A program made the translations under genes and the position numbers. This document shows positions 3,561 to 31,907 of a stretch of DNA of 64,000 nt, in pieces. Positions within the stretch are counted from its first letter, which is position 1, and every line of letters begins with the position of its first letter. This DNA is from Leisingera aquaemixtae (GTDB taxonomy: Bacteria > Pseudomonadota > Alphaproteobacteria > Rhodobacterales > Rhodobacteraceae): assembly GCF_019801145.1 (NCBI RefSeq), contig NZ_JAHVJQ010000004.1, forward strand, positions 372,001 through 436,000. The letters run 5' to 3'. Below the pieces are notes generated by a model. It ran no database searches and was not told the DNA's origin. It was given only the letters and a program-made list of their open reading frames with translations.

Positions 3561-3911
3561 ATGACACGCTCATTCACAACCCGCCGCGCCGTGCTGGGCG
3601 GCCTTTTGGCGGCAGCAGCCTTTGCAGGGGCGGCCGCAGCCCAGAGCATCAGCGGCAGCTACCGCGCCGAGGGCCGCAACCCCGATGGCAGCACCTATAC
3701 CGGCACGGTGCAAATCCAGGACAATGGCGGTGCGATCGAGATGAACTGGCAGGTCGGTGCCCAGGCCTATGCCGGGACCGGCACCCGCAACGGCGATGTG
3801 GTCTGGGTCGACTGGGGCGATACCTACCCGGTGGTCTACGTGCGGATGCCCAGCGGTGAGCTGCACGGCACCTGGTCCAACGGCCGCGCTTTGGAGCGGC
3901 TCATTCCATAA
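3561..3911 (+). CDS. Small secreted protein with twin-arginine-like leader
   Basis: A 116-residue product with an N-terminal leader TTRRAVLGG followed by a long Ala-rich hydrophobic stretch and a likely cleavage after AAAQ near residue 28; the paired arginines could make it a Tat substrate, though this is not decisive. The mature part, about 88 residues, is rich in glycine and beta-strand-like segments (SISGSYRAEGRNP, TYTGTVQIQ), suggesting a small beta-barrel or sandwich. I do not recognise a function. The start is set by GGAGGA at 3551-3556 before the ATG at 3561. Its 3' end overlaps the convergent neighbour by 11 bases. Confidence 0.8.
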   Translation: MTRSFTTRRAVLGGLLAAAAFAGAAAAQSISGSYRAEGRNPDGSTYTGTVQIQDNGGAIEMNWQVGAQAYAGTGTRNGDVVWVDWGDTYPVVYVRMPSGELHGTWSNGRALERLIP

Positions 3912-4173
3912 CCTGCAGTGCCAGCACGAAGCGGACGACCTTCTCCGCAGGCATCTCGCAGGGTTTGAGGCGGGCGCCGGACGTGAGCCGGTAAAGGTTG
4001 AGGCTGATGTAATCCGTGCCGCCCAGTTCGCGCGCCACCAGCTTTTGCGATTTGCCGCCGGCCAGGTCTTCGCGGGACACCATGTATTTGCACCCTTCCG
4101 CAGTCCCGGTGAAGGCGCCCAGCGGCAGGGCGTCGAAAGCTGCAAGAAAGGCCTGCAGCTTCTCCGGCGTCAC
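3901..4173 (-). CDS. Small conserved cytoplasmic protein downstream of plsY
   Basis: A 90-residue protein without signal peptide or membrane segment and without a function I can name. It starts with a GTG whose last bases overlap the plsY stop (4-base GTGA overlap), so it is translationally coupled as the last gene of the pyrB-pyrC'-plsY operon. The sequence is amphipathic alpha/beta with a KYMVSREDLAGGKSQKLVA segment. Its 3' end overlaps the convergent secreted-protein gene by 11 bases, leaving no room for a terminator. Confidence 0.7.
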   Translation of the reverse strand: MTPEKLQAFLAAFDALPLGAFTGTAEGCKYMVSREDLAGGKSQKLVARELGGTDYISLNLYRLTSGARLKPCEMPAEKVVRFVLALQVME

Positions 4174-4778
4174 TTCTGGCCGATCCGCGGCTCAGTGCCC
4201 GCCCGCAGGCGGGCGATATTGGCCGAGTGCCTGATGAACACCACTGCCGCCAGCAGCGCGGCCAGCAGGGCAACCGGATGGTAGCCCAGCAGCAAGGCCC
4301 AGGCCGCGCCCGACGCGGCCGAAACCAGCGCGCCCATCGAGGAAATCCGGGTCATTGCCGCTGCCGCCAGCCAGGTCAGGCAGCAGGCGATGCCCACCGG
4401 CCAGGCCAGTGCCAGCATCAGGCCGAGGAAGGTTGCCACCCCCTTGCCGCCCTTGAAGCCCAGCCAGACCGGAAAGCAATGGCCGAGGAAGGCCATCAGC
4501 CCTGCCATCTGCGACGCATCCTCGCCGGCCAGAAAGCGGGCCAGAAGCACCGCCACCGCGCCCTTGCCGCCGTCCAGAAGCAGCGTCAGTGCCGCGGCGG
4601 CCTTGCTGCCAGTGCGCAGCACGTTGGTGGTGCCGATATTGCCCGATCCGATTTCCCGCAGGTTGCCGAGGCCGAAAGCCTTGGTCACCACCAGCCCGAA
4701 CGGCACTGAGCCGAGGCCGTAGCCGATAACCGCCCACAGGATCAGAACCGCCGCAGAGCTTTCGAGTACTGGCATCAA
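4170..4778 (-). CDS. plsY: Glycerol-3-phosphate acyltransferase PlsY
   Basis: PlsY is the inner-membrane enzyme that transfers an acyl group from acyl-phosphate to glycerol 3-phosphate, making lysophosphatidic acid for phospholipid synthesis. The 202-residue product has the three family blocks: GSVPFG with REIGSGNIGTTNVLRTG near residue 40, a DGGKGAVAV block near 69, and LGHCFPVWLGFKGGKGVAT near residue 97. Several hydrophobic helices are present and the length is typical. Its ATG overlaps the pyrC' stop by four bases, so it is coupled to the pyrimidine genes; the later acyltransferase of this pathway, plsC, is at 57149-57898. Confidence 0.97.
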   Translation of the reverse strand: MMPVLESSAAVLILWAVIGYGLGSVPFGLVVTKAFGLGNLREIGSGNIGTTNVLRTGSKAAAALTLLLDGGKGAVAVLLARFLAGEDASQMAGLMAFLGHCFPVWLGFKGGKGVATFLGLMLALAWPVGIACCLTWLAAAAMTRISSMGALVSAASGAAWALLLGYHPVALLAALLAAVVFIRHSANIARLRAGTEPRIGQK

Positions 4779-6085
4779 TCCCTCCGGTAGACGGGCTCGC
4801 CCGCCACATATGTCGCTTCGACCCGGCCCTGCATCCGCTGGCCGTCATAAGGCGTGTTCTGTGATTTCGAGCGCAGCTTGAAGCGGTCCAGCACAAACGG
4901 CACATCCGCATCGAACAGCACCAGATCCGCGGGCGCCCCCGCGGCCAGGCGGCCGCTCTCCAAGCCCAGCCGCCTGGCCGGGTTCAGCGACATGGCGCGA
5001 AACAGGGCTGGCAGGTCCAAAAGCTCGGCGTGGTAAAGCCGCAGCGCAGCGGGCAGCAGCGTTTCCAGCGCCACTGCGCCGGCCGCGGCTTCCTCGAACG
5101 GCAGGCGCTTGCTTTCCTCGTCCTGCGGCGTGTGCATCGAGGAGATGATGTCAATGAGCCCGGTCCGCACCGCCTCAACCACCGCCAGCCGGTCGTCCTC
5201 GGAGCGCAGCGGCGGCTTCACCTTGAAGAAGCTGCGGTAGCCCGCCACGTCCAGCTCATTGAGCGTCAGGTGGTGGACCGAGGTGCCTGCAGTGATGTCG
5301 AGCCCGTTCTTCTTGGCGCGTTCCAGTGCGGGCAGGGCGCGCGCGGTGGTGATCTGGTCGGCGTGGTATTTCGCACCGGTCATTTCCAAGAGAGCGATAT
5401 CGCGGTCCAGCCCCATCCGTTCCGCCATCGGGGAGACCGCAGGCAGGCCATACAAGGCTGCAAACTTGCCGCTGGTGGCGGCGGCGCCCTTGCTCAGGAC
5501 CGGCTCCTGCGGGTGGGCGATGACCAAAGCTCCGCAGGACCGTGCATATGTCAGCGCCCGCTGAAACACCTTGGTGTTGCTGACCACATGGTCGCAATCG
5601 GAAAACGCCACCGCGCCGGCATCCATCAGAAAGCCGATCTCAGTCATCTCCCGCCCTTCGCGCCCCTTGGTCAGCGCCGCCATCGGCAGCACGTTCACGG
5701 GCGTGTCCGCCTGGGCGCGGCGGGTCACGAATTCCAGCGTCTCCGGGCTGTCGATTGCCGGGGTTGTGTCGGGCCGGGTGACAATGGTGGTCACGCCGCC
5801 CGCCGCGGCGGCAAGCCCGGCGGTTTTGTAGCTTTCCTTGTGCCGCTCACCCGGCTCGCAGACCTTGACGCCGATATCGACAATCCCCGGCGCCAGGCAT
5901 TTGCCGCCGCAGTCCACCTGGGTGACGTCGTCCGGGCCGGCGTTATGCGCGCGCAGCAGCTGGGCGGGGTCGGCGGCATTCTTTTCGACCGCCGCGATCC
6001 GCCCGTTCTGCACCAGAACCGCGCCGGGCGTGTCGGTGCCTGCCTCGGGATCGATCAGGCGGGCGTTGATGAAGAGAGTGCTCAT
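4775..6085 (-). CDS. pyrC: PyrC' pseudo-dihydroorotase, partner of aspartate carbamoyltransferase
   Basis: A 436-residue member of the dihydroorotase family (amidohydrolase fold). Dihydroorotase closes carbamoyl aspartate to dihydroorotate, but this copy lacks the metal site: where active enzymes have HxH the sequence reads IGVKV (G72, K74), the family CHVST is DQITT (H to Q244), and the catalytic TDHAPH is SSMHTPQ (D to M317). Only the histidine in IAHPQE (H191) is kept. In pseudomonads a similar inactive PyrC' is needed to assemble class A aspartate carbamoyltransferase; I infer the same here because pyrB lies in the same operon. An active dihydroorotase should be encoded elsewhere. It will usually be annotated simply as dihydroorotase. 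Confidence 0.9.
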   Translation of the reverse strand: MSTLFINARLIDPEAGTDTPGAVLVQNGRIAAVEKNAADPAQLLRAHNAGPDDVTQVDCGGKCLAPGIVDIGVKVCEPGERHKESYKTAGLAAAAGGVTTIVTRPDTTPAIDSPETLEFVTRRAQADTPVNVLPMAALTKGREGREMTEIGFLMDAGAVAFSDCDHVVSNTKVFQRALTYARSCGALVIAHPQEPVLSKGAAATSGKFAALYGLPAVSPMAERMGLDRDIALLEMTGAKYHADQITTARALPALERAKKNGLDITAGTSVHHLTLNELDVAGYRSFFKVKPPLRSEDDRLAVVEAVRTGLIDIISSMHTPQDEESKRLPFEEAAAGAVALETLLPAALRLYHAELLDLPALFRAMSLNPARRLGLESGRLAAGAPADLVLFDADVPFVLDRFKLRSKSQNTPYDGQRMQGRVEATYVAGEPVYRRD

Positions 6086-21069: not shown

Positions 21070-22116
21070 GTGACCGACATCCCCGACGTCTCCCCCCGCA
21101 CCCCGTGGGAAGAACCGCCCGCGCAGGGCGAGGCGATTGAGGTGGCCGAGGGCGTCCTCTGGATGCGCCAGCCGCTGCCGATGAAGCTCGATCATGTGAA
21201 CATCTATGCGCTGGACGAGGGCGACGGCTGGACGGTGATCGACACCGGCTTCAACTCGCGCAAGAGCCGCGGGATCTGGGAGAGCCTGATGGCCGGCCCG
21301 CTGCAGGGCAAGCCGGTTACGCGGGTGGTAGGCACCCACCATCATCCCGATCACATCGGCCTTGCCGGCTGGTTTCAGAGCGAACACGGCGCCGAGCTGG
21401 TCACCACGCGCACCGCCTGGCTGTTTGCCCGTATGCTGACGCTGGACGTGCAGGAGGTGTGGCCGGAAGAAACCCTGGCCTACTACCGCAGCGCCGGCAT
21501 GGCGCCGGAGGTCTATGGCAAGCGCGTCAAGGACCGGCCCTTCAATTTTGCCGACACCGTGCATCCGATGCCGCTGGGCTTCACCCGTATCAAGCAGGGC
21601 GACGTGATCCGCATGGGCGGGCGCGACTGGGATGTGCACACCGGCAACGGCCACGCGCCAGAGCACGCAACGTTCTGGAGCCGGGATGACAATCTGGTGA
21701 TCACCGGCGATCAGATCCTGTCGACCATCAGCCCCAACATCGGCGTCTACGCGACCGAGCCGATGGCCGACCCGCTGGGCGAATGGCTGGAAAGCTGCGA
21801 GCGGCTGTCGAAACTGGCGCGCCCGGATCATCTTGCCCTGGGCGGCCACAAGCTGCCGTTTTCACGCCTTCCGCTCAGGATGCAGCAGCTGATCGGCAAC
21901 CACCACGGCGCGCTGGAGCGGCTGATGGATCACCTGTCCGAGCCCCGCACTGCCGCCGATTGCTTTGCGCCCCTGTTCAAGCGCACAATCGGCGAGGGCG
22001 AGTACGGGCTTGCACTGGTCGAGGCGGTGGCCCATGTAAATCATCTGTACCATACTGGCCAGGTGGACCGCTGGAAGCGCAACGACGGCGCCTGGCTGTA
22101 TCAGAACAAGGGGTGA
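21070..22116 (+). CDS. MBL-fold metallo-hydrolase
   Basis: A 348-residue metallo-beta-lactamase-fold hydrolase. The binuclear metal motif THHHPDHIGLAG is at about residue 95, a later histidine in GHAPEHATF near 198, an aspartate in ITGDQILS near 216 and a histidine in LGGHKLPF near 263. The C-terminal ~80 residues form a helical, winged-helix-like extension seen in LACTB2-type members. The GTG start at 21070 lies 5 bases after the acyl-CoA dehydrogenase stop; the longer open frame upstream overlaps that gene and is rejected. Coupling suggests a thioester or acyl-related substrate, which is inference. Confidence 0.92.
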   Translation: MTDIPDVSPRTPWEEPPAQGEAIEVAEGVLWMRQPLPMKLDHVNIYALDEGDGWTVIDTGFNSRKSRGIWESLMAGPLQGKPVTRVVGTHHHPDHIGLAGWFQSEHGAELVTTRTAWLFARMLTLDVQEVWPEETLAYYRSAGMAPEVYGKRVKDRPFNFADTVHPMPLGFTRIKQGDVIRMGGRDWDVHTGNGHAPEHATFWSRDDNLVITGDQILSTISPNIGVYATEPMADPLGEWLESCERLSKLARPDHLALGGHKLPFSRLPLRMQQLIGNHHGALERLMDHLSEPRTAADCFAPLFKRTIGEGEYGLALVEAVAHVNHLYHTGQVDRWKRNDGAWLYQNKG

Positions 22117-22144
22117 TGCGCACCCCGCAGGAAGGGGAAGCACC

Positions 22145-22597
22145 ATGGGCGACGAGATTTCCACCAGCGCCGAGGCGGCAGAGGCGGCGGTGCTGCCCTG
22201 CGTGCATGAAGTCCACTCCGATCCCGATGCCTGCGCAGGCCTCAGCAAGGTGCCGGAGAAGCTGCAGAAACCGGATGCCGCCAAAAGCCCGGCCCGCTGG
22301 GCCTACGAACGGCTGATCCTCTATATCCAGAACTTCGAACAGCAGCTGGACGCCGAACACGAGGTCGCGATGGGTTTTACCGGCGGCAATACCGGTGTGC
22401 TCAGGATCGAGGGGATGGGGTATTTCGACCCTGATGTCATCACTTTCTACGGCAGCGAACCAAACGGCTCCCGCACCCAGCTGGTGCAGCACGTGAGCCA
22501 GCTCAATGTGATGCTGCGCGCGGTGCCGAAAGCGCGCGAGGAAGCGCCTGCCAACCGCATCGGCTTCCGCCTGGCCTCTGACCTGCAGCAGGACTGA
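22145..22597 (+). CDS. DUF6173 family protein
   Basis: A 150-residue cytoplasmic protein that I place in DUF6173, a family of unknown function common in Rhodobacterales, from the block YIQNFEQQLDAEHEVAMGF followed by TGGNTGVLRIEGMGYF and LVQHVSQLNVMLRA. No catalytic motif is evident. An AGGAAGGGGAAGC sequence precedes the ATG. It lies 28 bases after the MBL hydrolase and is followed by a very strong terminator, so it may be the last gene of the acyl-CoA dehydrogenase unit. Confidence 0.82.
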   Translation: MGDEISTSAEAAEAAVLPCVHEVHSDPDACAGLSKVPEKLQKPDAAKSPARWAYERLILYIQNFEQQLDAEHEVAMGFTGGNTGVLRIEGMGYFDPDVITFYGSEPNGSRTQLVQHVSQLNVMLRAVPKAREEAPANRIGFRLASDLQQD

Positions 22598-22635
22598 CCC
22601 GCAGCGGGCCGCGCGATTCGCCGCACGGGCAGCCG

Positions 22636-22668
22636 CCGCGGAAAACCGGCCGGTTTTCCGCGGTTTTC
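22636..22668 (+). terminator. Strong Rho-independent terminator (28-bp perfect palindrome)
   Basis: CCGCGGAAAACCGG at 22636-22649 is directly followed by its exact complement CCGGTTTTCCGCGG at 22650-22663 and then TTTTCC. It ends the transcription unit that includes the DUF6173 gene. Confidence 0.88.
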
Positions 22669-22769
22669 CAGGGGCATTTCACCCGGATGCGCCCGAATGA
22701 CGTGGTGACAGGGCGCGGCAAATCCGGTAATCACCGTGAAAATGCACGTGAATTCGAGGGATAACTCAC

Positions 22770-22904
22770 ATGGCTGAACATCAGCACGGCACCATGGACA
22801 CCACCGTTCAGGAAAAGACCTACTCCAGCTTCCTGACCTTTGTGACCCGCTTCTGCATTGCGATGGTCTTCCTGGCGCTGTTCCTGGCCGTTTTCGCTTC
22901 CTGA
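22770..22904 (+). CDS. aa3-type cytochrome c oxidase subunit IV
   Basis: A 44-residue mini-protein, easily missed by gene callers. The first ~18 residues are polar (MAEHQHGTMDTT) and the rest is one transmembrane helix (about 21-43). This layout, including the segment SFLTFVTRFCIAMV, is that of the small fourth subunit of Rhodobacter/Paracoccus aa3 cytochrome oxidase, which packs on the edge of the complex and is not needed for catalysis. A GAGGGA site precedes the ATG. The main oxidase genes are not in this window. A lipoprotein gene begins 16 bases downstream. Confidence 0.88.
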   Translation: MAEHQHGTMDTTVQEKTYSSFLTFVTRFCIAMVFLALFLAVFAS

Positions 22905-22920
22905 AATTAAGGACGCCTTG

Positions 22921-23538
22921 ATGCGCAATCTGCTCTGCTTCGGCGCGGTGATGCTGGCGCTTGCGGGTTGCGCCGCACCGCAGCAGCCCAACGCTGATGC
23001 CGAAACCCTGGCCAAGGTGGCCTACCGCCACCCCGGCCCGCCCGCGCTCACCCTGTATACGATGATCAACAACCGCACCGGGCGGGGCGGCCACACATCG
23101 CTCATGATCAATGCCTCCGAGCGGGTGATTTTCGATCCGGCCGGGTCTTTTTATGCTTCCGTTGTGCCGGAACGAGACGACGTTATTCACGGCATTACAC
23201 CGGCTGTAGAAAAGGCCTACCGCGGGGCGCATGCACGCAGCACTTATCACGTTGTCGTGCAGCGTATCGAGGTTGCTCCGGAACAGGCGGAGAAAGCCTA
23301 TCAGCTGGCGATAAACAATGGCCGGGTTCCCGGCGCTTTCTGTGCCCAGGCGACAATTGGCATCCTGCAGCAGGTTCCGGGGTTCGAAAGCCTGGACCGC
23401 ACCTTTTATCCTGAGAAGCTGGCAGAACAGTTTGGTCAGCTTCCTGGCGTGGTGACCGAACGCTATTACGAAAACGACAGCGCAGATTTGCAGGCGGGTA
23501 TCACCAAGAGCGATGCTGCGCTGAACGAGGCTGAGTAA
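22921..23538 (+). CDS. Putative lipoprotein of unknown function
   Basis: A 205-residue exported protein. The leader MRNLLCFGAVMLALAGC is a lipoprotein signal with cleavage before C17 (lipobox LAGC). The mature protein contains segments such as HTSLMINASERVIFDPAGSF and GAFCAQATIGILQ; the first resembles the strand-His region of papain-like/NlpC-type folds and the GAFCAQ may hold a cysteine nucleophile, but that is speculation. I do not recognise a named family. Start at 22921 is chosen over an upstream ATG at 22858, which would overlap the oxidase subunit gene. Confidence 0.78.
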   Translation: MRNLLCFGAVMLALAGCAAPQQPNADAETLAKVAYRHPGPPALTLYTMINNRTGRGGHTSLMINASERVIFDPAGSFYASVVPERDDVIHGITPAVEKAYRGAHARSTYHVVVQRIEVAPEQAEKAYQLAINNGRVPGAFCAQATIGILQQVPGFESLDRTFYPEKLAEQFGQLPGVVTERYYENDSADLQAGITKSDAALNEAE

Positions 23539-23594
23539 CCCTTCCCCTGTTGCAAGCGCGGGCCACGCTGCGCACGGCTGGGATTTTCTGAGAA

Positions 23595-23625
23595 GGCCTT
23601 GAAGGGCAGGTTTGCCCTCAAGGCC
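23595..23625. terminator. Long hairpin after the lipoprotein gene
   Basis: GGCCTTGA at 23595-23602 pairs with TCAAGGCC at 23618-23625, and GGGCA with TGCCC inside it, with one bulged base. No T-run follows, so it may be a Rho-type or processing hairpin. A second weaker inverted repeat (CAAGGG at 23656 and CCCTTG at 23696) follows before azlD. Confidence 0.45.
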
Positions 23626-23718
23626 GTTACCAAGTCTACCGCATTCCCCGCCGCCTCAAGGGCAAGCCGCGCTTATGGGCGCGGACGCTTGCGCGTCCCT
23701 TGACCCGTCAGGCAGCGC

Positions 23719-24048
23719 TCAGGCAGCGAGATACAAAAGCAGTAGGCTCAGCCCGCCGGTCCCAAGGCCGATCAGCACGTTGCGGGTCAGATAACCCGCG
23801 GCAAAGGTCGCGGCGGCGGCGGCAAAATGCATCAGGCTTGGGTCGCCGCCTGTCGGGGCAGGCCAGACCACCAGCGGCGCCACCAGGGCCGGGATGATTG
23901 CCACGGCGGTATAGCGCAGATGCCGCATCAGCCACTCGGGGATTGGCTTTCCGCCCATGAAACCGATGAAGGCAAACCGCAAGCCATAGCTGCCAAGCGC
24001 CAGCCCGATGATCACGGTCCACAAGACGGGTGTGGGGATACTGCTCAT
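23719..24048 (-). CDS. azlD: AzlD family branched-chain amino acid exporter small subunit
   Basis: A 109-residue membrane protein with about four hydrophobic segments, matching AzlD, the small partner of AzlC. Together they export branched-chain amino acids. Conserved features are the N-terminal GLALGSYGLRFAFIG and the PEWLMRHLRYTAVAIIPAL stretch. The start at 24048 overlaps the azlC stop (ATGA), so translation is coupled; an upstream in-frame start would intrude into azlC. Confidence 0.92.
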   Translation of the reverse strand: MSSIPTPVLWTVIIGLALGSYGLRFAFIGFMGGKPIPEWLMRHLRYTAVAIIPALVAPLVVWPAPTGGDPSLMHFAAAAATFAAGYLTRNVLIGLGTGGLSLLLLYLAA

Positions 24049-24773
24049 TTTGCGCCCTCCGCCTTGGCCTTTTGCCGTTCCAGCCACAGTTCGGCCTGAG
24101 CGCCCGCGACCATGCCGGCAATACCCGCCACAATCAGCCCCAGGTTATAGGGCAGGGCTGCCGCGGGCAGCGAGGCGGCCACCGCGACAAAACACGCTGC
24201 GACATGCGCAGGTGTGCGCAGCATCGGCCCGATCATTGCCAGAAACGCCAGCGGCAGCACGAAATCCACCCCCCAGCTCTCCGGGATCCGGGTGCCGACC
24301 AGCGCCCCCAGAGCAGTTGCAATCACCCAGGCCGGGGTGATCAGCCCGTTGGTGCCAAAGAAATACGCGACCCGCTGCGGCAGTGGCATTTCCGGCTCTG
24401 TCTCGAACTGCACGACCGACAGCGCATAGGACTGATCGACGATGAAATAGGCGGCAATCGCCCTTTGCCACATTGGTGCATCGCCGAGGTATGGCGTCAG
24501 CGAAGCCGAATACATCGCCATCCGCAGATTCACCGCCAGCGCCGAAATCAAGATGATGATCAGCGGCGCGTTTTCCTGCATCAGCTGCAACGCGGTGAAC
24601 TGGGCGGCGCCGGCAAAGACCGTCAGCGAGAAGGCAAAGGCCTCCGGCACGATCAGCCCGGCCTCTGCCGCCAGCACCCCGAACAGAAAGCCGAAGGGCG
24701 AAGCCATGAACAGGAAAGGCGCGCTGTCGCGAAACCCCTTCCAGAAGGCCGATTTGGTGGTGGTGATTGCCAT
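24045..24773 (-). CDS. azlC: AzlC family branched-chain amino acid exporter
   Basis: A 242-residue integral membrane protein of the AzlC/YgaZ family, the large subunit of a two-component exporter of branched-chain amino acids (valine in E. coli YgaZH). It shows the family start SPFGFLFGVLAAEAGL, the AGAAQFTALQLM motif near residue 53 and NLRMAMYSASLTPYL near 80. It is divergent from fdhD with about 58 bases between start codons. Confidence 0.93.
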   Translation of the reverse strand: MAITTTKSAFWKGFRDSAPFLFMASPFGFLFGVLAAEAGLIVPEAFAFSLTVFAGAAQFTALQLMQENAPLIIILISALAVNLRMAMYSASLTPYLGDAPMWQRAIAAYFIVDQSYALSVVQFETEPEMPLPQRVAYFFGTNGLITPAWVIATALGALVGTRIPESWGVDFVLPLAFLAMIGPMLRTPAHVAACFVAVAASLPAAALPYNLGLIVAGIAGMVAGAQAELWLERQKAKAEGAK

Positions 24774-24831
24774 CTGCGCGTCCTAGATTGCGTTGAACCG
24801 CCCTACGGCGGACGCAGAAGGAATGCAATTG

Positions 24832-25713
24832 GTGAGTATGGATATCACGTCAGAATATCTGATCGCCCCCGGTGTCTCCGACCCGCGGCTCACGCGCGCA
24901 GTCACCGGTGTCGACCAGAATGGCGAGCAAAGCGAGATCGCTGTGGTCGAGGAACGCCCGCTGACCATCTTCCTGAACTCGCAGGAAATTGTCACCGCGA
25001 TGACCATCGGCGATTACCCGGAATACCTGGCGCTCGGTTTCCTGCGCAATCAGCGTATGCTGCGCGACGAGGATGAGGTGACCCGCGTCGATTATGACGA
25101 GGACCTGGAAACAGTGGTGGTGCGCACCGCGGTGGAAACCAGCCACGAGGAGAAGCTGAAGAAGAAGACCCGCACCTCCGGCTGCGCGGTCGGCACCGTC
25201 TTCGGCGACATGATGGAAGGGCTGGAGGACGTGCGCCTGCCGCGGGCCGAGGTCCGCACCTCCTGGCTTTACGCGCTGGCGCATAAGATCAACCGCACGC
25301 CTTCGCTCTATCTGGAGGCCGGCGCCATCCATGGCACGGTGCTGTGCCAGCAGGACCGCCCGCTGGTCTATATGGAGGACGTCGGCCGCCACAACGCGGT
25401 GGACAAAATCGCCGGCTGGATGCTGTCGGAGCAAGCCGAGGCCGCGGACAAAATCCTCTACACCACAGGTCGGCTGACCTCTGAGATGGTGATCAAGACC
25501 GCGATGATGGGCATCCCGGTGCTGGCCTCTCGCTCGGGCTTCACAGCCTGGGGCGTGGAGATTGCGCGCGAGGTTGGCCTCACCCTGATCGGCCGGATGC
25601 GCGGCCAGCGGTTTATCTGCCTCTCGGGCGAGGAGCGCCTGGTGCGCGACATGGACCCCAAGGACGCGCCGCTGGAGGAGAAGAAACACAGGCGGAAGAG
25701 TGCGGACGGCTAA
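24832..25713 (+). CDS. fdhD: Formate dehydrogenase accessory sulfurtransferase FdhD
   Basis: FdhD moves sulfur from the IscS cysteine desulfurase to the molybdenum cofactor so that formate dehydrogenase becomes active. The 293-residue product carries the cysteine loop RTSGCAVGTVFG near residue 120 and the MEDVGRHNAVDKIAG and TTGRLTSEMVIK blocks that bind the cofactor. AGAAGGA at 24816-24822 lies 9 bases before a GTG at 24832, which I use as start; an ATG at 24838 is equally possible and a TTG at 24793 less so. It heads the operon fdhD-mobA-mobB-moeA. No formate dehydrogenase is in the window. Confidence 0.93.
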   Translation: MSMDITSEYLIAPGVSDPRLTRAVTGVDQNGEQSEIAVVEERPLTIFLNSQEIVTAMTIGDYPEYLALGFLRNQRMLRDEDEVTRVDYDEDLETVVVRTAVETSHEEKLKKKTRTSGCAVGTVFGDMMEGLEDVRLPRAEVRTSWLYALAHKINRTPSLYLEAGAIHGTVLCQQDRPLVYMEDVGRHNAVDKIAGWMLSEQAEAADKILYTTGRLTSEMVIKTAMMGIPVLASRSGFTAWGVEIAREVGLTLIGRMRGQRFICLSGEERLVRDMDPKDAPLEEKKHRRKSADG

Positions 25714-25740
25714 CCGGAGGCCGGCCCTGGAGGAGAATAA

Positions 25741-26385
25741 ATGACAGAACAGAAGCCTTTGGGCGTTATCCTCGCAGGCGGCCTTGCCACCCGGATGGGC
25801 GGCGGCGACAAGGGGCGGTTGCTAGTCAGCGGCCAAAGCCTCCTGTCCCGTGTCGTTGACCGGCTGTCGCCGCAGGTCGCGGGCCTGGCGCTCAACGCCA
25901 ATGGCGATCCGGAGCGGTTTGCCGACCTGGAACTGCCGGTCATTGCCGACTCGATCGAAGGCTTTGCCGGCCCCTTGGCGGGTGTGCTCGCAGGTCTCGA
26001 TTGGGCGGCAGAGCAGGGGGCCGACACCATCGTCACCGCCGCCGCCGACACGCCCTTCTTCCCGCGGGATCTGGTCGCCCGGCTCACCGCTGCTGCAGAG
26101 GGCATGGATCAACCGCTGGTGCTCGCCACCACCCCGCGCACCGGCGACGAGGCGCTGAAATCCGGCGGCGGCAAGCGCATCAACCGGCACCCGGCCTTCG
26201 GCCTCTGGCCCGTCGCCCTGCGCGATGACCTGCGCGCGGCGTTGCAGGACGGATTGCGCAAGGTCGTGCTCTGGACCGACCAGCACGGCGGCCGCGAAGC
26301 GCTGTTTGAGGCAGACCCCTTCGACCCGTTCTTCAACATCAACACGCCGGATGATCTGGCCAAGGCCGAGGCGCTCTTGAAATGA
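25741..26385 (+). CDS. mobA: Molybdenum cofactor guanylyltransferase
   Basis: MobA joins GMP to molybdenum-molybdopterin to make the guanine dinucleotide cofactor used by formate dehydrogenases and DMSO-reductase-type enzymes. The 214-residue protein has the nucleotidyltransferase signature LAGGLATRMGGGDKGRL near the N-terminus, the VIADSIEGFAGPLAGVLAGL block and a metal-binding TAAADTPFFP. The ATG follows GGAGGAG at 25731. Its TGA overlaps the mobB ATG by four bases. Confidence 0.96.
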   Translation: MTEQKPLGVILAGGLATRMGGGDKGRLLVSGQSLLSRVVDRLSPQVAGLALNANGDPERFADLELPVIADSIEGFAGPLAGVLAGLDWAAEQGADTIVTAAADTPFFPRDLVARLTAAAEGMDQPLVLATTPRTGDEALKSGGGKRINRHPAFGLWPVALRDDLRAALQDGLRKVVLWTDQHGGREALFEADPFDPFFNINTPDDLAKAEALLK

Positions 26386-26873
26386 AGATCTACGGCGTCA
26401 CGGGCTGGAAGAACAACGGCAAGACCGGGCTGATGGAACGGCTGGTGGCGGAGTTCTGCGCCCGCGGATTCTCCGTTTCCACCATAAAGCACGCTCACCA
26501 CGCCACTGATGTGGACCAGCCCGGCACCGACAGTTACCGCCACCGCCAGGCCGGCGCGTCAGAGGTGGTGCTGGCCTCAGCCGGCCGCGTCGCCATCATG
26601 CAGGAACTGCGCGGCGCGGCAGAGCCGCCGCTGGCGGAGCTGCTGGCCCGTCTCAATCCGGTCGATCTGGTGCTGGTGGAGGGCTACAAGCGCGAACCGC
26701 ATCCCAAGATCGAGGCCTTCCGGCAGGCGGCAGGCACCGAACTGATCGCCCCGCAGGACCCCAGCATCCGGGCCGTTGCCAGCGACACCCGGCTGGAGCT
26801 GGACCGCCCGGTGTTCGATCTGAACGACACGGCAGCGATCGCGGATTTCGTCCAGGCGGAATTGGGGCTGTGA
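26382..26873 (+). CDS. mobB: Molybdopterin-guanine dinucleotide biosynthesis adaptor protein
   Basis: MobB is a P-loop GTPase that assists MobA. The 163-residue protein begins MKIYGVTGWKNNGKTGLME, a P-loop of the GxxNxGKT type, followed by the STIKHAHH switch near residue 37 and the VDLVLVEGYK motif near 92. It is coupled to mobA upstream and to moeA downstream by four-base overlaps. Confidence 0.95.
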   Translation: MKIYGVTGWKNNGKTGLMERLVAEFCARGFSVSTIKHAHHATDVDQPGTDSYRHRQAGASEVVLASAGRVAIMQELRGAAEPPLAELLARLNPVDLVLVEGYKREPHPKIEAFRQAAGTELIAPQDPSIRAVASDTRLELDRPVFDLNDTAAIADFVQAELGL

Positions 26874-29002
26874 CCCCCTTTGATACCGTCCTGGCCGTCG
26901 ACTGGTCCGCGGCCAAGCGCAGGCCCCGGCGCCCCAGCAAGGACGCGATCTGGCTCGGTGTGGCGCGCGGCGGCACCGCGGAGCAGCCGGTTTACTGCCG
27001 CAGCCGGATGGAGGCAGAGGCATGGATCAGCAGCTTTCTCGCCACGGAGCAGGCTGCGGGGCGGCGGGTGCTGGCGGCTTTTGATTTCCCCTTCGGATAC
27101 CCGCGGGGATTTGCGCGCCGGATTACCGGATCGGATGACCCCTTCGCCCTTTGGCAATGGCTGGAAGAACGGATCGAAGACGCAGAGGACGGGAGCAACA
27201 ACCGGTTCGGCGTCGCCTCCGAAATGAACCGGCAGTTTGTTGGCGCCGGTCCGTTCTGGGGTAAACCGGACCCGGCGCGCTGGCCGGACATTCCCTATCG
27301 CAAGTCCGGGATCACCTATGCGGACGTGGCAGAACGGCGCAGCGCGGATCTGGCAGCCAAGGCGGCCTCCTCCTGTTTTCAGCTGTTTTTCAACCCGACG
27401 GTTGGCAGCCAGGTCCTGATGGGACTGCCGGTCCTGCAGCGGTTGCGGCTCCGGCACAAGGCCGCTGTCTGGCCTTTCGAAAACATTGCGAAGGCGCAAA
27501 TTGTGTTCGCGGAAATATGGCCAGGATTGATTGAGCCAGCCGTCAAGGCCGCAATGGCCGTTGCAGGCCGCGAAGAAATACGCGACCGGGTGCAAATGCG
27601 GCTGTTGCCGCTGGCGCTCAGCCGCCTGCCGGCAGCGGAGCTGGCCGCAATGCTGGCTGCAGCGCCTGACGAAGCACAAGAGGAGGCCTGGATATTGGGC
27701 ACGGGGCACGAGGACCGCTTGAATGCACTGGCTGCGGATGAGGCGGGCGGGCTGACGCCGCCGCCGCTCAGCAACGATTGTTTTGCCCTGCCTGCGGGCG
27801 TGGACTGGACCCCGGTCGATGACGCGCTAGCGTTGCTCCGGGACAGGCTGGGGCCGGTGACCGGCGCAGAGTCCTTGCCGCTGGCTGATGCGCTGGGCCG
27901 GGTTCTGGCAGAGGATGCACTGGCCAAGCGCTCCAACCCGCCGTTGCCGAACACGGCGGTGGACGGCTACGGTTTTGCCGGCGGCCGCGAGGCGGGTCCG
28001 CATGTGCTGCCGCTGGTGCAGGGCCGGGCCGCTGCCGGGGTGCCGTTTGACGGCACGGTGCCCGAAGGCCACGCCATCCGGGTCCTGACCGGCGCGGCGC
28101 TGCCCGATGGCGTCGACACGGTGATCCTGGAGGAAGACGTCAACACCGACGGCACCCGGATCGCATTCAACGGCCCCTTGAAACACGGCGCCAACACCCG
28201 CAAGGCGGGCGAGGATGTCTGCGCAGATGAGGTCATCCTGCCCGCAGGCCGGGTCATCACCCCTGCCGATCTCGCCCTGGCCTCAGCCACCGGGCTGGCA
28301 GAGCTTACGGTGCGGCTGCCGCTGCGCGTGGGTGTGCTCTCCACCGGCGACGAGCTGGTCGAAGCCGGGGAACCCGCAGGCAAGGGGCAGATTTTCGATG
28401 CCAACCGGCCAATGCTGCTGGCGCTGATCCGCCAGCTGGGATTTGCGCCGGTGGACCTGGGCAAGGCGGAGGACGACCGCGAGGCGCTGCGGGCGCATCT
28501 GGATGGCGCTGCGGCGCAAACGGATGTGATCCTGACCTCCGGCGGTGCGTCCGCCGGGGACGAGGACCACATGTCGGCGCTCTTGCGCGAGGCGGGCGCG
28601 ATGCAGGAATGGCGCATTGCGCTGAAGCCCGGCCGGCCGCTGGCGCTGGGCATGTGGCAGGGCACGCCGGTTTTCGGGTTGCCGGGCAACCCGGTGGCGG
28701 CGCTGGTCTGCACACTGATTTTTGCCCGCCCTGCCATGGGGCTGATGGCCGGTGCCGGCTGGCAAGAGCCGCAAGGCTTCGAGGTGCCCGCCGCTTTCGA
28801 AAAGCGCAAGAAACCGGGCCGCCGCGAGTACTTGCGGGCGCGGGTGCGGGACGGCCGTGCGGAGGTGTTCAAGTCCGAGGGTTCCGGCCGCATCAGCGGC
28901 CTCAGCTGGGCGGAAGGGCTGGTGGAGCTTGGCGACGGTGCCGCTGAGATAAAGCCCGGCGATCCGGTCCGCTTCATTCCTTACGGCAGTTTCGCGATGT
29001 AG
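26870..29002 (+). CDS. moeA: MoeA molybdopterin molybdenumtransferase with N-terminal DUF429-like domain
   Basis: MoeA inserts molybdate into adenylylated molybdopterin. The 710-residue product is about 300 residues longer than normal. Residues ~308-710 are a complete MoeA: NTAVDGYGFAGG, LTGAALPDGVDTVILEE, STGDELVEAG, SGGASAGDEDHMS, KPGRPLALG and GLPGNPVAALV. Residues 1-295 look like a separate domain with an RNase H-like/DUF429 pattern: LAVDWSAAKRR (D11), AAFDFPFGYPRGFARR (about 70-84), and FAEIWPGLI (E215) where DUF429 has an acidic residue before a conserved Pro. The domain is inferred by pattern, not by search. It overlaps mobB by four bases and ends the operon. Confidence 0.92.
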   Translation: MTPFDTVLAVDWSAAKRRPRRPSKDAIWLGVARGGTAEQPVYCRSRMEAEAWISSFLATEQAAGRRVLAAFDFPFGYPRGFARRITGSDDPFALWQWLEERIEDAEDGSNNRFGVASEMNRQFVGAGPFWGKPDPARWPDIPYRKSGITYADVAERRSADLAAKAASSCFQLFFNPTVGSQVLMGLPVLQRLRLRHKAAVWPFENIAKAQIVFAEIWPGLIEPAVKAAMAVAGREEIRDRVQMRLLPLALSRLPAAELAAMLAAAPDEAQEEAWILGTGHEDRLNALAADEAGGLTPPPLSNDCFALPAGVDWTPVDDALALLRDRLGPVTGAESLPLADALGRVLAEDALAKRSNPPLPNTAVDGYGFAGGREAGPHVLPLVQGRAAAGVPFDGTVPEGHAIRVLTGAALPDGVDTVILEEDVNTDGTRIAFNGPLKHGANTRKAGEDVCADEVILPAGRVITPADLALASATGLAELTVRLPLRVGVLSTGDELVEAGEPAGKGQIFDANRPMLLALIRQLGFAPVDLGKAEDDREALRAHLDGAAAQTDVILTSGGASAGDEDHMSALLREAGAMQEWRIALKPGRPLALGMWQGTPVFGLPGNPVAALVCTLIFARPAMGLMAGAGWQEPQGFEVPAAFEKRKKPGRREYLRARVRDGRAEVFKSEGSGRISGLSWAEGLVELGDGAAEIKPGDPVRFIPYGSFAM

Positions 29003-29009
29003 GCGCAGC

Positions 29010-29117
29010 GCTCCCGCCCGCGGCCCGGCGCATCACAGATGCTTGCCCGCCTTTGGGCCGGGCGCAGCGCTGGCGCGGGGCGCCGCTCTTTCATCTTTCC
29101 AAAAATACTTGCGTCCC
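29010..29117 (-). repeat. Dispersed extragenic repeat, long copy
   Basis: Read on the minus strand this holds AGTATTTTTGGAAAGATGAA (29090-29110), then a GC-rich arm, then AAGCATCTGTGATGCG near 29028-29044. The segment 29025-29051 is identical over 27 bases to 36428-36454. The copy lies between the convergent moeA and the membrane gene at 29179, where it could also help end transcription. Confidence 0.7.
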
Positions 29118-29178
29118 GCTGCCCGGCAGGCGGCTTTGCCGCCGATAGGGGAGGCAGCGCCTGAAAGGCGCTTCCTTT

Positions 29179-30213
29179 CTAGTCGAACGTCCCGGCCACC
29201 CGGCCCAGCAGCATGAAGGCGCGGGCGGTGCGGGTGTTGCCAAGCGCCGAAATCTCGCCGTCGGTGGCCTCGGCCTCGAAATCCGCAAACATCTGGTCGA
29301 ACCGGCGCAGAAAATGGTGCGCCGCATCGCGGAAGATCGGGTCCTGCTTCATCCGCGCCGCGGTCAGCGCCAGAGAGGTGCGGTCGCGCACGCCGCCGAG
29401 CGCCGCCACCGCGCGGCCGCGGGCGCCCTGGCCGAACTGGCGCCAGATCTCGGGCCGGGCCATGTCGGGGCGCAGGTCGTCCATGTAGATGCCGTCCTGG
29501 CTCAGCAGCGTCAGCACATCCTGCGCCGCCTGAATCACCTGCGCCGCCTTGCGGTCGCGCAGCGCCGCGCGCAGGGCGGCAAAACCTTCCTCGTCCTCGG
29601 CGGTTTCCGGGAAGTTCAGCGCCCGGATGAACTGCTCGGCGGGCAGCGGCGGCACGGTGTCCGCCGCCTGGGTGCCCAGCGCCAGCGAGCCCTGCTCGGC
29701 AGCGGTCATCTCTGCAGCCTCGGCCGGGATGGCCGGGCGCAGCGGGTTGGCGCGGCGGCTGGTGTGGAAGGTCGCCAGCGCGGTCTCGGTCTTGCGGGTG
29801 GCTTCGGCGATTTCCTCCAGCCGCTTCGCGACCGAGGTCTCGGCCACCGCCGCATGCTGCTGGGCCTGGGCAAGGTAGCTCTGGCGCAACCCGTCGATGG
29901 CGGCTTGCAGCTGCTCGCTCTCCTCCCGCATCACCCGGGCCGAACGCGCAGCAGAGGCCGCGACCCAAAGCATCGCCAGCGGCAGCACCACCGCCAGCAC
30001 GCTGGTGATCAGATCCGCCCACTGCGACAGGCCGGTATCTTCCGGCGCAAGGACATAGAAGCCCACCGCCGCCAGCAGCCACAATGCGCCGAGGGCGATG
30101 GCGGCCATCTCGGCCCCGCCCAGCCCATTGCCGGCAGGCCCCTCGAGCCGCCGCAGCGGGCTGCCGCCTGCGGGACGGGAACCGGAGCCGGGACTGCTGC
30201 TGGAGCCTGTCAT
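29179..30213 (-). CDS. Membrane protein with coiled coil, unknown function
   Basis: A 344-residue protein. A Ser/Gly/Pro-rich N-terminal tail (about 1-35) precedes two transmembrane helices (about 36-55 and 63-85). A helical, Glu/Gln/Arg-rich stretch (about 85-150: REESEQLQAAIDGLRQSYLA, SVAKRLEEIAEATRKTE) suggests a coiled coil, and the C-terminal ~150 residues are a helical cytoplasmic domain. Its helix-coil outline recalls structural or scaffold proteins, but I cannot name a family. The ATG at 30213 is preferred to an upstream start because the extension has no signal. greA lies just upstream on the same strand. Confidence 0.75.
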   Translation of the reverse strand: MTGSSSSPGSGSRPAGGSPLRRLEGPAGNGLGGAEMAAIALGALWLLAAVGFYVLAPEDTGLSQWADLITSVLAVVLPLAMLWVAASAARSARVMREESEQLQAAIDGLRQSYLAQAQQHAAVAETSVAKRLEEIAEATRKTETALATFHTSRRANPLRPAIPAEAAEMTAAEQGSLALGTQAADTVPPLPAEQFIRALNFPETAEDEEGFAALRAALRDRKAAQVIQAAQDVLTLLSQDGIYMDDLRPDMARPEIWRQFGQGARGRAVAALGGVRDRTSLALTAARMKQDPIFRDAAHHFLRRFDQMFADFEAEATDGEISALGNTRTARAFMLLGRVAGTFD

Positions 30214-30232
30214 CACCACTCGGCCTCTCGGA

Positions 30233-30703
30233 TCAGGAATAGACGATCTTGAGAATCTCATAGGCGCGCTCGCCGCCGGGCGTGCGCACTTCCACACTGT
30301 CGCCTTCGTCCTTGCCGATCAAGGCGCGCGCGATCGGGGATTTGATGTTCAGAAGGCCCGCTTCGATGTTGGCCTCATGCTCGCCCACGATCTGCCAGGT
30401 CTTTTCCTCGTCGGTGTCCTCGTCCACCACCGTCACCTTGGCGCCGAACTTGATGGCGCCGGACAGCTTGGCCGGGTTGATCACATCGGCCAGAGACAGG
30501 ATGCCTTCCAGCTCCTTGATGCGGCCCTCGATGAAAGACTGCTTTTCGCGGGCCGAGTGGTATTCGGCGTTTTCCGACAGATCGCCCAGCTCGCGGGCTT
30601 CGGCAATCGCCTGGATGATGGCCGGGCGCTCCACGGATTTGAGGTTCTTCAGTTCGCTTTCCAGGGCGGAGAAACCCGCCGGGGTCATCGGGATCTTTTC
30701 CAT
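30233..30703 (-). CDS. greA: Transcription elongation factor GreA
   Basis: GreA stimulates the RNA polymerase's own transcript cleavage so that backtracked complexes resume. The 156-residue length is standard. The N-terminal coiled-coil tip has the [18 protein letters not shown] signature with its acidic residues near position 40, and the C-terminal FKBP-like domain is present ([22 protein letters not shown]). [11 protein letters not shown] at 30703 is the usual start; a longer upstream frame is spurious. Confidence 0.97.
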
Positions 30704-30948
30704 GTGATTGGTCCAGGTCGCTCTATTGTTCTTGTCTCTATGAAAACCGCAGCCCCGCAGCATGAGCCGCGGGGCCTCCGGTCCGGTTGACAATTACCTG
30801 ACCCAATCCTGCGCCCGATTTCAAGTGGCCGCAGAGGCCCGCCGGACGCAATTCCGCCTAACCGTGCAGATTATGCGGGTTTTCCACAGGTTTGCGCGAA
30901 AAAATGCCGTGCGGGGCGGCGGCAGGCGCCGCCGCCGGCCGCAACAGC

Positions 30949-31329
30949 TCAGTCATATTGCACCGCCTCGTACTCGATGCCGTTCTCATCGTGAAAGTAG
31001 AACCGGTGGCCCGGTTCGTAATCGCCGTGGTTCATCGGGGTGAACCCGGCGGCCTTCACCGCAGCCTCTGTGGCGTCCAGATCCTCGACGATCACCGCCA
31101 GATGGTTCAGCCCGCCGATGATGCCATAGCTTTCCGGCGCTTGGCCTGCCGCAGTGCGCGGCGTGTAAAGCGCGAGGTAGCTGTTTTCCCCGCCCACATG
31201 CACGGTATAGCCGCCGTTCTTGGCCTCGCCCTGCCAGCGCACATGCCAGCCAAAGATCTTCTCCATCCAGGCGGCGGTGCCATTGGGGTCTGCCACGGTG
31301 ACATTTGCGTGTTCCAATACTGCGCTCAT
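30949..31329 (-). CDS. VOC (glyoxalase/bleomycin-resistance) family protein, putative SoxR target
   Basis: A 126-residue vicinal-oxygen-chelate fold protein made of two beta-alpha-beta-beta-beta units (starts LEHANVTVADPN and LNHLAVIVEDLD). Metal-ligand positions appear as the histidine of LEHANV, the histidine of LNHLAV and the final IEYEAV glutamate; members of this family bind metal for isomerisation or dioxygenation or bind drugs, and the role here is not clear. Start at 31329 follows AAGGAG. It is divergent from soxR, and the intervening DNA has a MerR-type promoter with a SoxR-box-like site on its strand. Confidence 0.88.
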   Translation of the reverse strand: MSAVLEHANVTVADPNGTAAWMEKIFGWHVRWQGEAKNGGYTVHVGGENSYLALYTPRTAAGQAPESYGIIGGLNHLAVIVEDLDATEAAVKAAGFTPMNHGDYEPGHRFYFHDENGIEYEAVQYD

Positions 31330-31382
31330 TGAAAAACTCCTTTTCGGCTTGAGCAATCCTGTTGATGCGACTCACCGTAATT

Positions 31383-31400
31383 CCTAAACCTAACTTTAGC
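31383..31400. promoter_or_regulatory. SoxR-box-like operator in MerR-type promoter
   Basis: CCTAAACCTAACTTTAGC matches the canonical SoxR site CCTCAAGTTAACTTGAGG at about 12 of 18 positions and keeps its inverted-repeat form. On the minus strand it sits in a 19-base spacer between TTGAGC (a -35) and TACGGT (a weak -10), the long spacer that MerR-family activators need. This promoter points to the VOC gene. Confidence 0.6.
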
Positions 31401-31427
31401 TCAAGAGATTTCTTCAGGGAGGTTGCC

Positions 31428-31907
31428 ATGCCCCAGTCCGCCGGGATTTCCATCGGCTATCTGGCCGAACGCACCGGCCTCGCGGTGTCCGCGATCCGCT
31501 ACTACGAGGCGCAAGGTTTGGTGGAGCCCTGGCGCAACGCAGGCGGCCAGCGCCGCTTTCACCGGGCCGACATCCGGCGGCTGAGCTTCGTCATGATCGC
31601 CCAGCAGTTCGGTTTCTCGCTGCCGGAAATCCGCGGCTTTCTCAAAAGTCTGCCGGGCAGCCGCACCCCGACCAAGGAGGACTGGGCCTGCATTTCGGAC
31701 ACCTTCCGCAGCCACCTGGACCAGCGAATCGAAACCCTGGTCAAACTGCGCGACAATCTGGACGGCTGCATAGGCTGCGGCTGTCTTTCGCTTCCGAATT
31801 GCAAACTTTACAACCCCGAAGACCGGGCGGCACAGAAGGGGCAGGGACCCCGATACCTGATGGGAGACCGGCCTGAGACAGAAGCTGAGGCGGAAAATGC
31901 TCCTTGA
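31428..31907 (+). CDS. soxR: Redox-sensing transcription activator SoxR
   Basis: A MerR-family activator that senses redox-cycling compounds through a 2Fe-2S cluster. The 159-residue product has the MerR helix-turn-helix (IGYLAERTGLAVSAIRYYEA) at residues 9-28, a dimerisation helix and the SoxR-defining cluster ligands C114, C117, C119 and C125 (Cx2CxCx5C). AGGGAGG lies 5 bases before the ATG at 31428, deciding it over an upstream in-frame start. In bacteria outside the enterics SoxR often controls a few nearby genes directly; the divergent VOC gene is the obvious candidate. Confidence 0.96.
   Translation: MPQSAGISIGYLAERTGLAVSAIRYYEAQGLVEPWRNAGGQRRFHRADIRRLSFVMIAQQFGFSLPEIRGFLKSLPGSRTPTKEDWACISDTFRSHLDQRIETLVKLRDNLDGCIGCGCLSLPNCKLYNPEDRAAQKGQGPRYLMGDRPETEAEAENAP

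Follow-up and report, generated by a model that had tools for sequence, protein, structure and literature searches.

What is the additional domain that precedes MoeA in a molybdenum-cofactor operon of Leisingera aquaemixtae, and what might it do there? The question is raised by a gene in the 64,000-nucleotide stretch analysed here (contig NZ_JAHVJQ010000004.1, positions 372,001 to 436,000), which is called the window below. The gene is a single uninterrupted frame of 710 amino acids at 26870-29002 on the plus strand, and its GTG start overlaps the stop codon of mobB by 4 nucleotides. The MoeA half contains the Pfam domains MoeA_N (315-475), MoCF_biosynth (488-623) and MoeA_C (639-704), all over the cut-off and in this order, and for residues 1-310 Pfam gave zero matches even at E ≤ 10. 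The NCBIfam model PRK14495 covers residues 3-285 with an E value of 9.2e-73. An earlier note had read the protein as a separate N-terminal domain fused to a complete MoeA in an fdhD-mobA-mobB-moeA setting, and both points are borne out, the setting by Pfam matches of fdhD, mobA and mobB. Our results show that the extra domain forms a unit that is conserved and separable from MoeA and is tied to the mobA, mobB and moeA genes in the window's order, the Rhodobacterales, and that it is linked to cobalamin genes as well.

The separability of the domain is seen in a natural absence. Sampled loci and genomes carry the labels L and G with a number, G000 being the genome of the window. The window's genus is represented by one further genome in the sample, G428, which has no domain and keeps the fdhD-mobA-mobB-moeA order. 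The window positions 26894-27751 (858 bp, residues 9-294) are replaced there by 51 bp, and the flanks are 84% and 81% identical. The MoeA of G428 reads MTLTPPPFSNDCFALP and aligns from window residue 295 onward, which places the start of MoeA proper near 295 and not at about residue 308, as had been supposed. With this plain MoeA in a relative of the same genus, the possibility that the domain is a known part of MoeA was rejected, and the domain is thus not needed by MoeA. We infer that the domain was deleted in G428. Further genomes have the full operon without the domain (L271, L272 and L274).

The spread of the domain was followed in 149 sampled genomes of the order, and it was found in 96, each time as a single copy. 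A wider profile added a weak partial match in one further genome, G291. Of the 96 loci, 66 were read in detail and the other 30 are known by frame length only. In 34 of the 66, the window included, the domain is fused before MoeA. The earlier note had proposed to look for the domain as a separate gene by mobAB or moeA, and such genes were found: 7 lie between mobB and moeA and 16 directly after mobA. In 2 loci the domain follows mobA-mobB without a moeA, and one fusion each was observed with MobA (L101) and MobB (L097), where the MobA and MobB parts were assigned by Pfam. The remaining 5 loci differ. L122, from the window's own family, is a fusion to CobH (PF02570), L126 has the domain directly after a molybdenum-hydroxylase gene with MoCoBD domains, and in L128 the C-terminal part of the frame has no Pfam match. 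By eye, this part, which follows the domain in the frame L128:6069-7730 (+), resembles a decayed MoeA. Near the domain in L119 and L129, cofactor genes were sought and none was recognised.

The loci of named genomes were also inspected. These were the best 80 of at least 517 relatives and are hence biased to the window's kin; in 71 the domain is fused to MoeA, in 7 it is a gene of its own upstream of moeA, and 2 (L206, L215) stop within it. The closest are 8 Leisingera loci with 84-91% identity and one Rhodobacteraceae metagenome-assembled genome with 92%. When the domain was compared pairwise with 7 of the closest loci, the ratio of nonsynonymous to synonymous substitutions (dN/dS) was 0.10-0.20, indicating purifying selection; the MoeA part gave 0.056-0.091 with the same loci. 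Because 7 sampled genomes have the domain as a gene of its own in this position, it had to be checked whether an assembly or annotation artefact had joined two genes in the window, and a frameshift or start error had indeed been named as a possibility. That the fusion recurs in 33 further sampled genomes of the order and in 71 of the 80 named-genome loci, together with the purifying selection on the domain, shows that this is not so, and an artefact has practically no chance of being the explanation.

The most constant neighbour of the domain in the window's family is mobA. Among 114 neighbour proteins scanned at 22 loci without moeA, AzlC (15 proteins) and MobA-like transferases (14) were found. 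At 10 of 80 loci the neighbour gene caller missed the gene of the domain, and these Pfam tallies are therefore partial; the 17-kb context counts given below are independent of the caller. Of the 19 genomes with a mobA-domain locus, 18 have a single MoeA_N gene in all, vs 0 of the 41 that have domain and moeA together. The domain thus keeps with mobA where no second moeA exists. A general tie of the domain to fdhD or to a second MoeA was rejected with the 19 mobA-domain loci that have no moeA nearby, and a loss of fdhD was ruled out since FdhD is present elsewhere in all 19 of these genomes. Enzymes of the bis-molybdopterin guanine dinucleotide (bis-MGD) type (PF01568) occur in 30 of 30 genomes tested and therefore do not distinguish the locus types. 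The genome of the window has one copy of the domain and two MoeA genes; the second MoeA (G000:C1:629226-629699) is in a frame of 390 amino acids, and two MoeA branches may run.

The link to cobalamin was observed mostly outside the order. In the class, 45 of 289 alphaproteobacterial genomes match the window's domain and 67 match the wider profile; in a sample of the phylum 37 of 299 genomes match, 4 of them from outside the class and 2 of these weakly. We took 38 of 42 outside matches with large flanks, and they fall into two subfamilies, A1 (L034-L058, 25 loci) and A2 (L059-L071, 13 loci), whose alignments match each other as profiles with 99.9%. Genes recognised within about 8 kb were counted. 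Cobalamin genes were present in 11 of the 25 A1-type loci and molybdenum-cofactor genes in none. For 42 loci of the window's family, molybdenum genes were recognised in 37 and B12 genes in 2. The A2-type loci had neither (0/13 and 0/13) and lay near RarA (10/13) and RluC (11/13). Arbitrary 17-kb stretches gave 0/20 for both gene sets; these controls were picked by hand, 15 from the genomes of the A1 loci and 5 from other genomes of the set. The difference for cobalamin (11/25 vs 0/20) has a Fisher p of 4.6e-4, with rows that are not all independent. Some reference proteins come from counted loci (L036, L041, L043, L045, L067) and match themselves; the main ones are confirmed by Pfam.

Several cobalamin layouts recur. 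The order cbiX-domain-cobH-cobL was found in L035, L037 and L041, a fusion of the domain to CobH (PF02570) in L043, L044 and L057 as in L122, and cobU/cobP directly upstream of the domain in L045, L047 and L051 (PF02283 in 3/3). In L036, cobQ stands directly before the domain, and in L040 a cbiB-like gene adjoins it on the opposite strand. Pfam confirmed the CbiX, CbiC, CobU and CobQ-type domains of these neighbours. The loci L255-L269 were examined later and lie outside the 25-locus count. L255 carries, between cbiX and cobL, a decayed domain-CobH fusion (3844-5154, minus strand) in which the domain is recognisable only in parts, and in L261 a cut-off domain frame lies about 1 kb from cobH. 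RarA is near the domain in L263, L264, L265 and L267, and none of the sought genes was recognised in L256-L260, L262, L266, L268 and L269. The link to cofactor maturation that the earlier note had suspected is thus supported by the fusions to MoeA, MobB and MobA and by the mobA and mobB neighbours; that the closest outside relatives often lie in cobalamin clusters goes beyond it.

The fold of the domain was predicted with AlphaFold2. A model of residues 1-305 built with 74 sequences had a predicted local distance difference test score (pLDDT) of 94.3 and a predicted template modelling score (pTM) of 0.91; a single-sequence model (pLDDT 47.6) was discarded. The model has strands at 6-11, 27-33 and 41-43, a helix at 46-62, a strand at 67-71, a long insertion, a strand at 211-216, and helices at 218-232 and 238-252. 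We read the beta-beta-beta-alpha-beta order as that of a putative RNase H fold in which strand 4 is followed by an insertion. Among the 50 rows listed by VIA-align were Spt6, Tex, Cas9/Cas12 chains, RuvC, YqgF, terminases and MutS, with Z values of 5.5-7.1; there was no DUF429 structure in this list, and none was sought by name. In a Foldseek search against viral protein models, RNase H, RuvC and terminase were listed, none at E ≤ 0.001. The matches are coherent, but a Z below 8 can reflect a common arrangement, so an RNase H/RuvC-like fold is likely, not proven. The RNase H-like pattern that had been noticed from the letters thus agrees with a confident model and with consistent matches to RuvC, Tex, Spt6 and terminases, of which none is significant alone.

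The conserved residues were compared in 90 rows, which comprise the window and 89 of 111 loci with the domain cut out, after duplicates and near kin had been dropped. D11, D72 and E215 are present in 90/90 rows, be they molybdenum-linked, B12-linked, other A1-type or A2-type. The earlier note had placed D11, the DFPFGYP motif and E215 correctly, and D239 belongs to the set too. It is found in 85/90 rows (44/44 molybdenum-linked, 12/12 B12-linked, 21/21 other A1-type and 8/13 A2-type), so that the acidic tetrad is complete in 56/56 rows linked to either cofactor. The positions in strand 1, strand 4 and the C-terminal part appear to fit the RNase H-like pattern. R46, N120, Q181 and Q242 are also invariant in these 56 rows, and none of them separates the molybdenum from the B12 forms. 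They were considered as special to the cofactor-linked members, which was too strong, since 20-21 of the 21 other A1 rows have them. N120, Q181 and Q242 occur in 0/13 A2 rows. His and Cys are absent among the invariant residues. The features of the locus are collected in the table.

Table. Coordinates of the fused gene, its conserved acidic codons and its neighbours, numbered from the first letter of the window
Feature	Position	Strand	Remark
N-terminal domain, residues 1-294	26870..27751	+	RNase H/RuvC-like predicted fold, no Pfam family
D11 codon	26900..26902	+	VDWS motif, strand 1; D in 90/90 rows
D72 codon	27083..27085	+	DFPFGYP motif; D in 90/90 rows
E215 codon	27512..27514	+	EIWPGL motif; E in 90/90 rows
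D239 codon	27584..27586	+	fourth acidic residue, start of a C-terminal helix
Complete MoeA, residues 295-710 including stop codon	27752..29002	+	three Pfam domains over cut-off
mobB	26382..26873	+	PF03205 E 3.9e-48; TIGR00176 over cut-off
mobA, molybdenum cofactor guanylyltransferase	25741..26385	+	TIGR02665 190 bits, over cut-off
fdhD, formate dehydrogenase sulfurtransferase	24793..25713	+	PF02634 E 1.8e-75; longest frame, true start possibly later
azlC	24045-24773		

The history of the domain was read from a tree of the 90 rows, made with a quick method, unrooted and with support values of the SH-aLRT (Shimodaira-Hasegawa-like approximate likelihood ratio test) only. All molybdenum-linked rows fall into one clade of 48 (support 96; 44 molybdenum-linked and 4 other), the B12-linked rows are scattered outside it with partly weak forks, and the A2 group is separate (support 100). 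The neighbourhood has to change 14 times on the tree vs 40.5 times with shuffled labels. With the wider profile, for which up to 8 candidates were scored per genome, 60 of 67 genomes had one match; G197 had two full-length matches, and the second matches of six genomes were gene pieces or fragments. The simplest history is one move of a gene from a B12 cluster to the molybdenum cluster, followed by the fusions. As the tree is unrooted, we infer the direction of this move. A viral or mobile origin was also considered; one scan of viral contigs with the L032 domain found no relative. A riboswitch-based link to the cofactor genes was rejected, since no Rfam family reached the gathering score in the window at 22000-31500.

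What could such a domain do beside these genes? Tentatively, we propose a metal-dependent phosphohydrolase of the RNase H/RuvC fold that helps in the assembly of nucleotide-tailed metal cofactors, which is possible and falls clearly short of probable. The evidence is considerably stronger for an accessory role of the domain in both pathways than for this particular mechanism. D11, D72, E215 and D239 would hold two divalent metals, as in RuvC and RNase H, and the bond that the domain cuts would be a phosphoanhydride or phosphodiester of a small molecule linked to a nucleotide. The simplest substrate would be a guanylylated intermediate that is faulty, lacks the metal or is in excess (molybdopterin-guanosine monophosphate (GMP) conjugates; cobinamide-guanosine diphosphate), and the domain would be a proofreader or recycler beside the guanylyltransferase. 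CobU/CobP attaches GMP to its cofactor precursor. MobA also transfers GMP to a cofactor precursor, as PMC13197769 describes. Since both enzymes guanylylate precursors, a phosphohydrolase beside them would make sense in such a role. In the window, the fusion to MoeA would bring the activity close to the insertion of the metal and to guanylylation in the branch that serves formate dehydrogenase. In Methylorubrum extorquens, MoeA1, MobB and FdhD form a branch through which a tungsten formate dehydrogenase is matured (PMC13197769), and in Alloyangia pacifica the fdhD-mobA-mobB-MoeA set is followed by formate dehydrogenase genes. By analogy, the set of the window is plausibly the matching branch. 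A wider version is doubtful and holds that a new enzyme family edits or recycles guanylylated metal-cofactor intermediates in two unrelated pathways, having arisen beside cobalamin genes (CobU/CobP, CbiX, CobH), moved once as a single-copy gene to MobA and then been fused to MobA, MobB and MoeA.

A number of observations weigh against the phosphohydrolase proposal. Foldseek against the PDB gave no match at E ≤ 0.001 (terminase, RNase H, Ppx/GppA and kinase chains were listed), the best VIA-align Z of 7.1 is within the range of common arrangements, and a PDB sequence search gave one chance-level match only (E 0.43). R46, N120, Q181 and Q242, being common to the other A1 rows, mark the A1 subfamily and not the cofactor setting. 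Neither cofactor gene set is near the domain in 14 of the 25 A1-type outside loci, and, apart from the guanylyltransferase, the B12 genes nearby also stand for early and middle steps (CbiX, CobH). In 53 of the 149 genomes of the order, all 53 with MoeA, no copy of the domain was found, and it is dispensable, as G428 keeps the whole operon without it. The distant A2 subfamily, with its RarA and RluC neighbours, fits nucleic-acid work.

The last point also speaks for a rival, a nuclease that acts on DNA or RNA, RuvC-like or as proposed for DUF429, whose place in a cofactor operon would be incidental co-expression or a run-on fusion. The predicted fold with its four acidic residues, the A1 loci without cofactor neighbours and the near-constant single copy per genome, regardless of neighbours, would suit such an enzyme, and DUF429 proteins are expected to be nucleases according to PMC3985635. 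Against a nuclease speak the recurrent cofactor neighbours and the fusions to MoeA, MobB, MobA and CobH, which arbitrary stretches did not show, and since N120, Q181 and Q242 are common to A1, its molybdenum- and B12-linked members included, and absent from A2, the A2 context need not indicate the function of A1. We hold a nuclease to be not very probable. The domain could also be non-catalytic and either dock MobA, MobB and MoeA (or the B12 enzymes) to each other or sense a cofactor nucleotide, which we consider slightly less probable still. Fusions at several points of one relay, MobA, MobB and MoeA, speak for docking, as do the contacts of MoeA1 and MobB that matter for maturation in M. extorquens (PMC13197769). 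An invariant acidic set in all cofactor-linked members would be unusual for a pure scaffold. Moreover, CobH and CbiX are not known to be related to MobA and MoeA, so that one docking surface for both is unlikely. Last, the domain might handle the metal or its insertion, Mo or W with MoeA and Co with CbiX, and not a nucleotide. Its fusion to the metal insertase MoeA and its place beside cbiX in several cobalamin clusters point this way, and the MoeA1-MobB-FdhD branch serves tungsten in M. extorquens (PMC13197769). We regard metal handling as quite improbable, because 19 loci have the domain with mobA and no moeA in the fetched flanks (in 18 of these genomes the one MoeA lies elsewhere), in three loci the domain follows cobU/cobP with no cbiX recognised nearby, and neither His nor Cys is among the invariant residues. 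If the wider version of the phosphohydrolase proposal is true, the known bis-MGD and cobalamin pathways would miss a hydrolytic quality-control step. The double link to molybdenum and B12 suggests a chemistry common to both pathways, for which a guanylyl-linked intermediate is the obvious candidate; stand-alone versions as in Ruegeria sp. TM1040 and the clean absence in a close relative make this testable and offer a natural control.

The relation to DUF429 (PF04250; COG2410, COG4328, COG4923), a family of the RNase H-like superfamily, has two sides. The term DUF429-like, used in the earlier note, does not stand as a membership. Neither the window protein nor the 13 A2 members have a Pfam match to PF04250 (for the window protein at E ≤ 10), the genome of the window has none, and direct profile-profile comparison was insignificant with 2.3% (a five-sequence DUF429 profile) and 0.4%, so direct membership was rejected. 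The DUF429 model also has 214 positions vs about 300 residues of this domain. By eye, the two have in common, in the same motif order, the D of strand 1, D-x-P-[FI]-G, E-x-[HWY]-P and, in the last helix, another D. A third subfamily, A9 (L256-L259 and L268), matches A1 with 98.6%; its member L259 matches PF04250 with E 1.1e-4 and 22.4 bits, the cut-off being 23, and A9 compared with five DUF429 sequences gave 17.7% in an alignment that brings the E-x-x-P and D-x-x-DA motifs into line. Over this bridge a distant kinship to DUF429 is likely. Two A9 members end in a C-terminal HIT domain, L257:3854-5314 (-) and L258:4110-5537 (-), with PF01230 E values of 7.1e-15 and 5.8e-15. NUDIX and RelA/SpoT fusions of DUF429 are described in PMC3985635, and with the HIT fusions they suggest a common theme of nucleotide conjugates. 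A DUF429 protein at L145:1501-2211 (-) (PF04250 E 5.2e-7) lies directly after a gene that by eye looks like cobQ, so true DUF429 proteins may also have cobalamin neighbours. At L140:583-2214 (+), a DUF429 domain ends a longer frame whose first part resembles, by eye, a pyridoxal kinase.

The nuclease domains of RuvC, YqgF, Tex, Spt6 and the terminases are grouped with the domain in the fold comparison; it differs from them by the lack of a significant Foldseek match or a PDB sequence relative, and no DNA-repair neighbour was recognised in A1-type loci. In the A2-type loci L061, L062 and L064-L071, the relative of the domain is a neighbour of rarA; degP often precedes it, and rluC and a haloacid dehalogenase (HAD) phosphatase often follow, a setting in which a RuvC-like protein adjoins a RuvB-like ATPase.

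For the MoeA half, PRK14491, a MobB-MoeA fusion, matches with E 7e-124 and the plain MoeA model PRK10680 with E 8.7e-105. Both scores are under the curated cut-offs, and the two alignments begin at residues 299 and 315, which leaves the N-terminal domain uncovered. In records of Alloyangia and Salipiger the fused protein is annotated 'gephyrin-like molybdotransferase Glp', and the stand-alone domain gene of Ruegeria sp. TM1040 (TM1040_RS04220) is a 'hypothetical protein' in the order azlD, azlC (other strand), fdhD, a hypothetical gene, mobA, mobB, domain, moeA. Thus the domain is common in the order and yet without a Pfam entry, being masked by such labels in annotated records. No paper on it was found in a search of titles and abstract openings that mostly did not cover subscription journals.

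Profile search and structure prediction, which the earlier note had suggested, gave the confident model described above, no Pfam family, and one known counterpart. This is PRK14495 (NF011066), the 'putative MobB/unknown domain fusion protein', whose C-terminal 'unknown domain' (profile positions 166-448) is the domain described here and which is matched by 50/50 A1 members. Its whole-protein cut-off is not reached by the window protein (245.7 bits vs 596), and MobB is a separate gene here. The MobB-domain architecture of the model was also seen at L097. In conclusion, PRK14495 describes MobB fusions and gives no function, whereas the partner of the same domain is MoeA in the window and MobA, CobH or none elsewhere.

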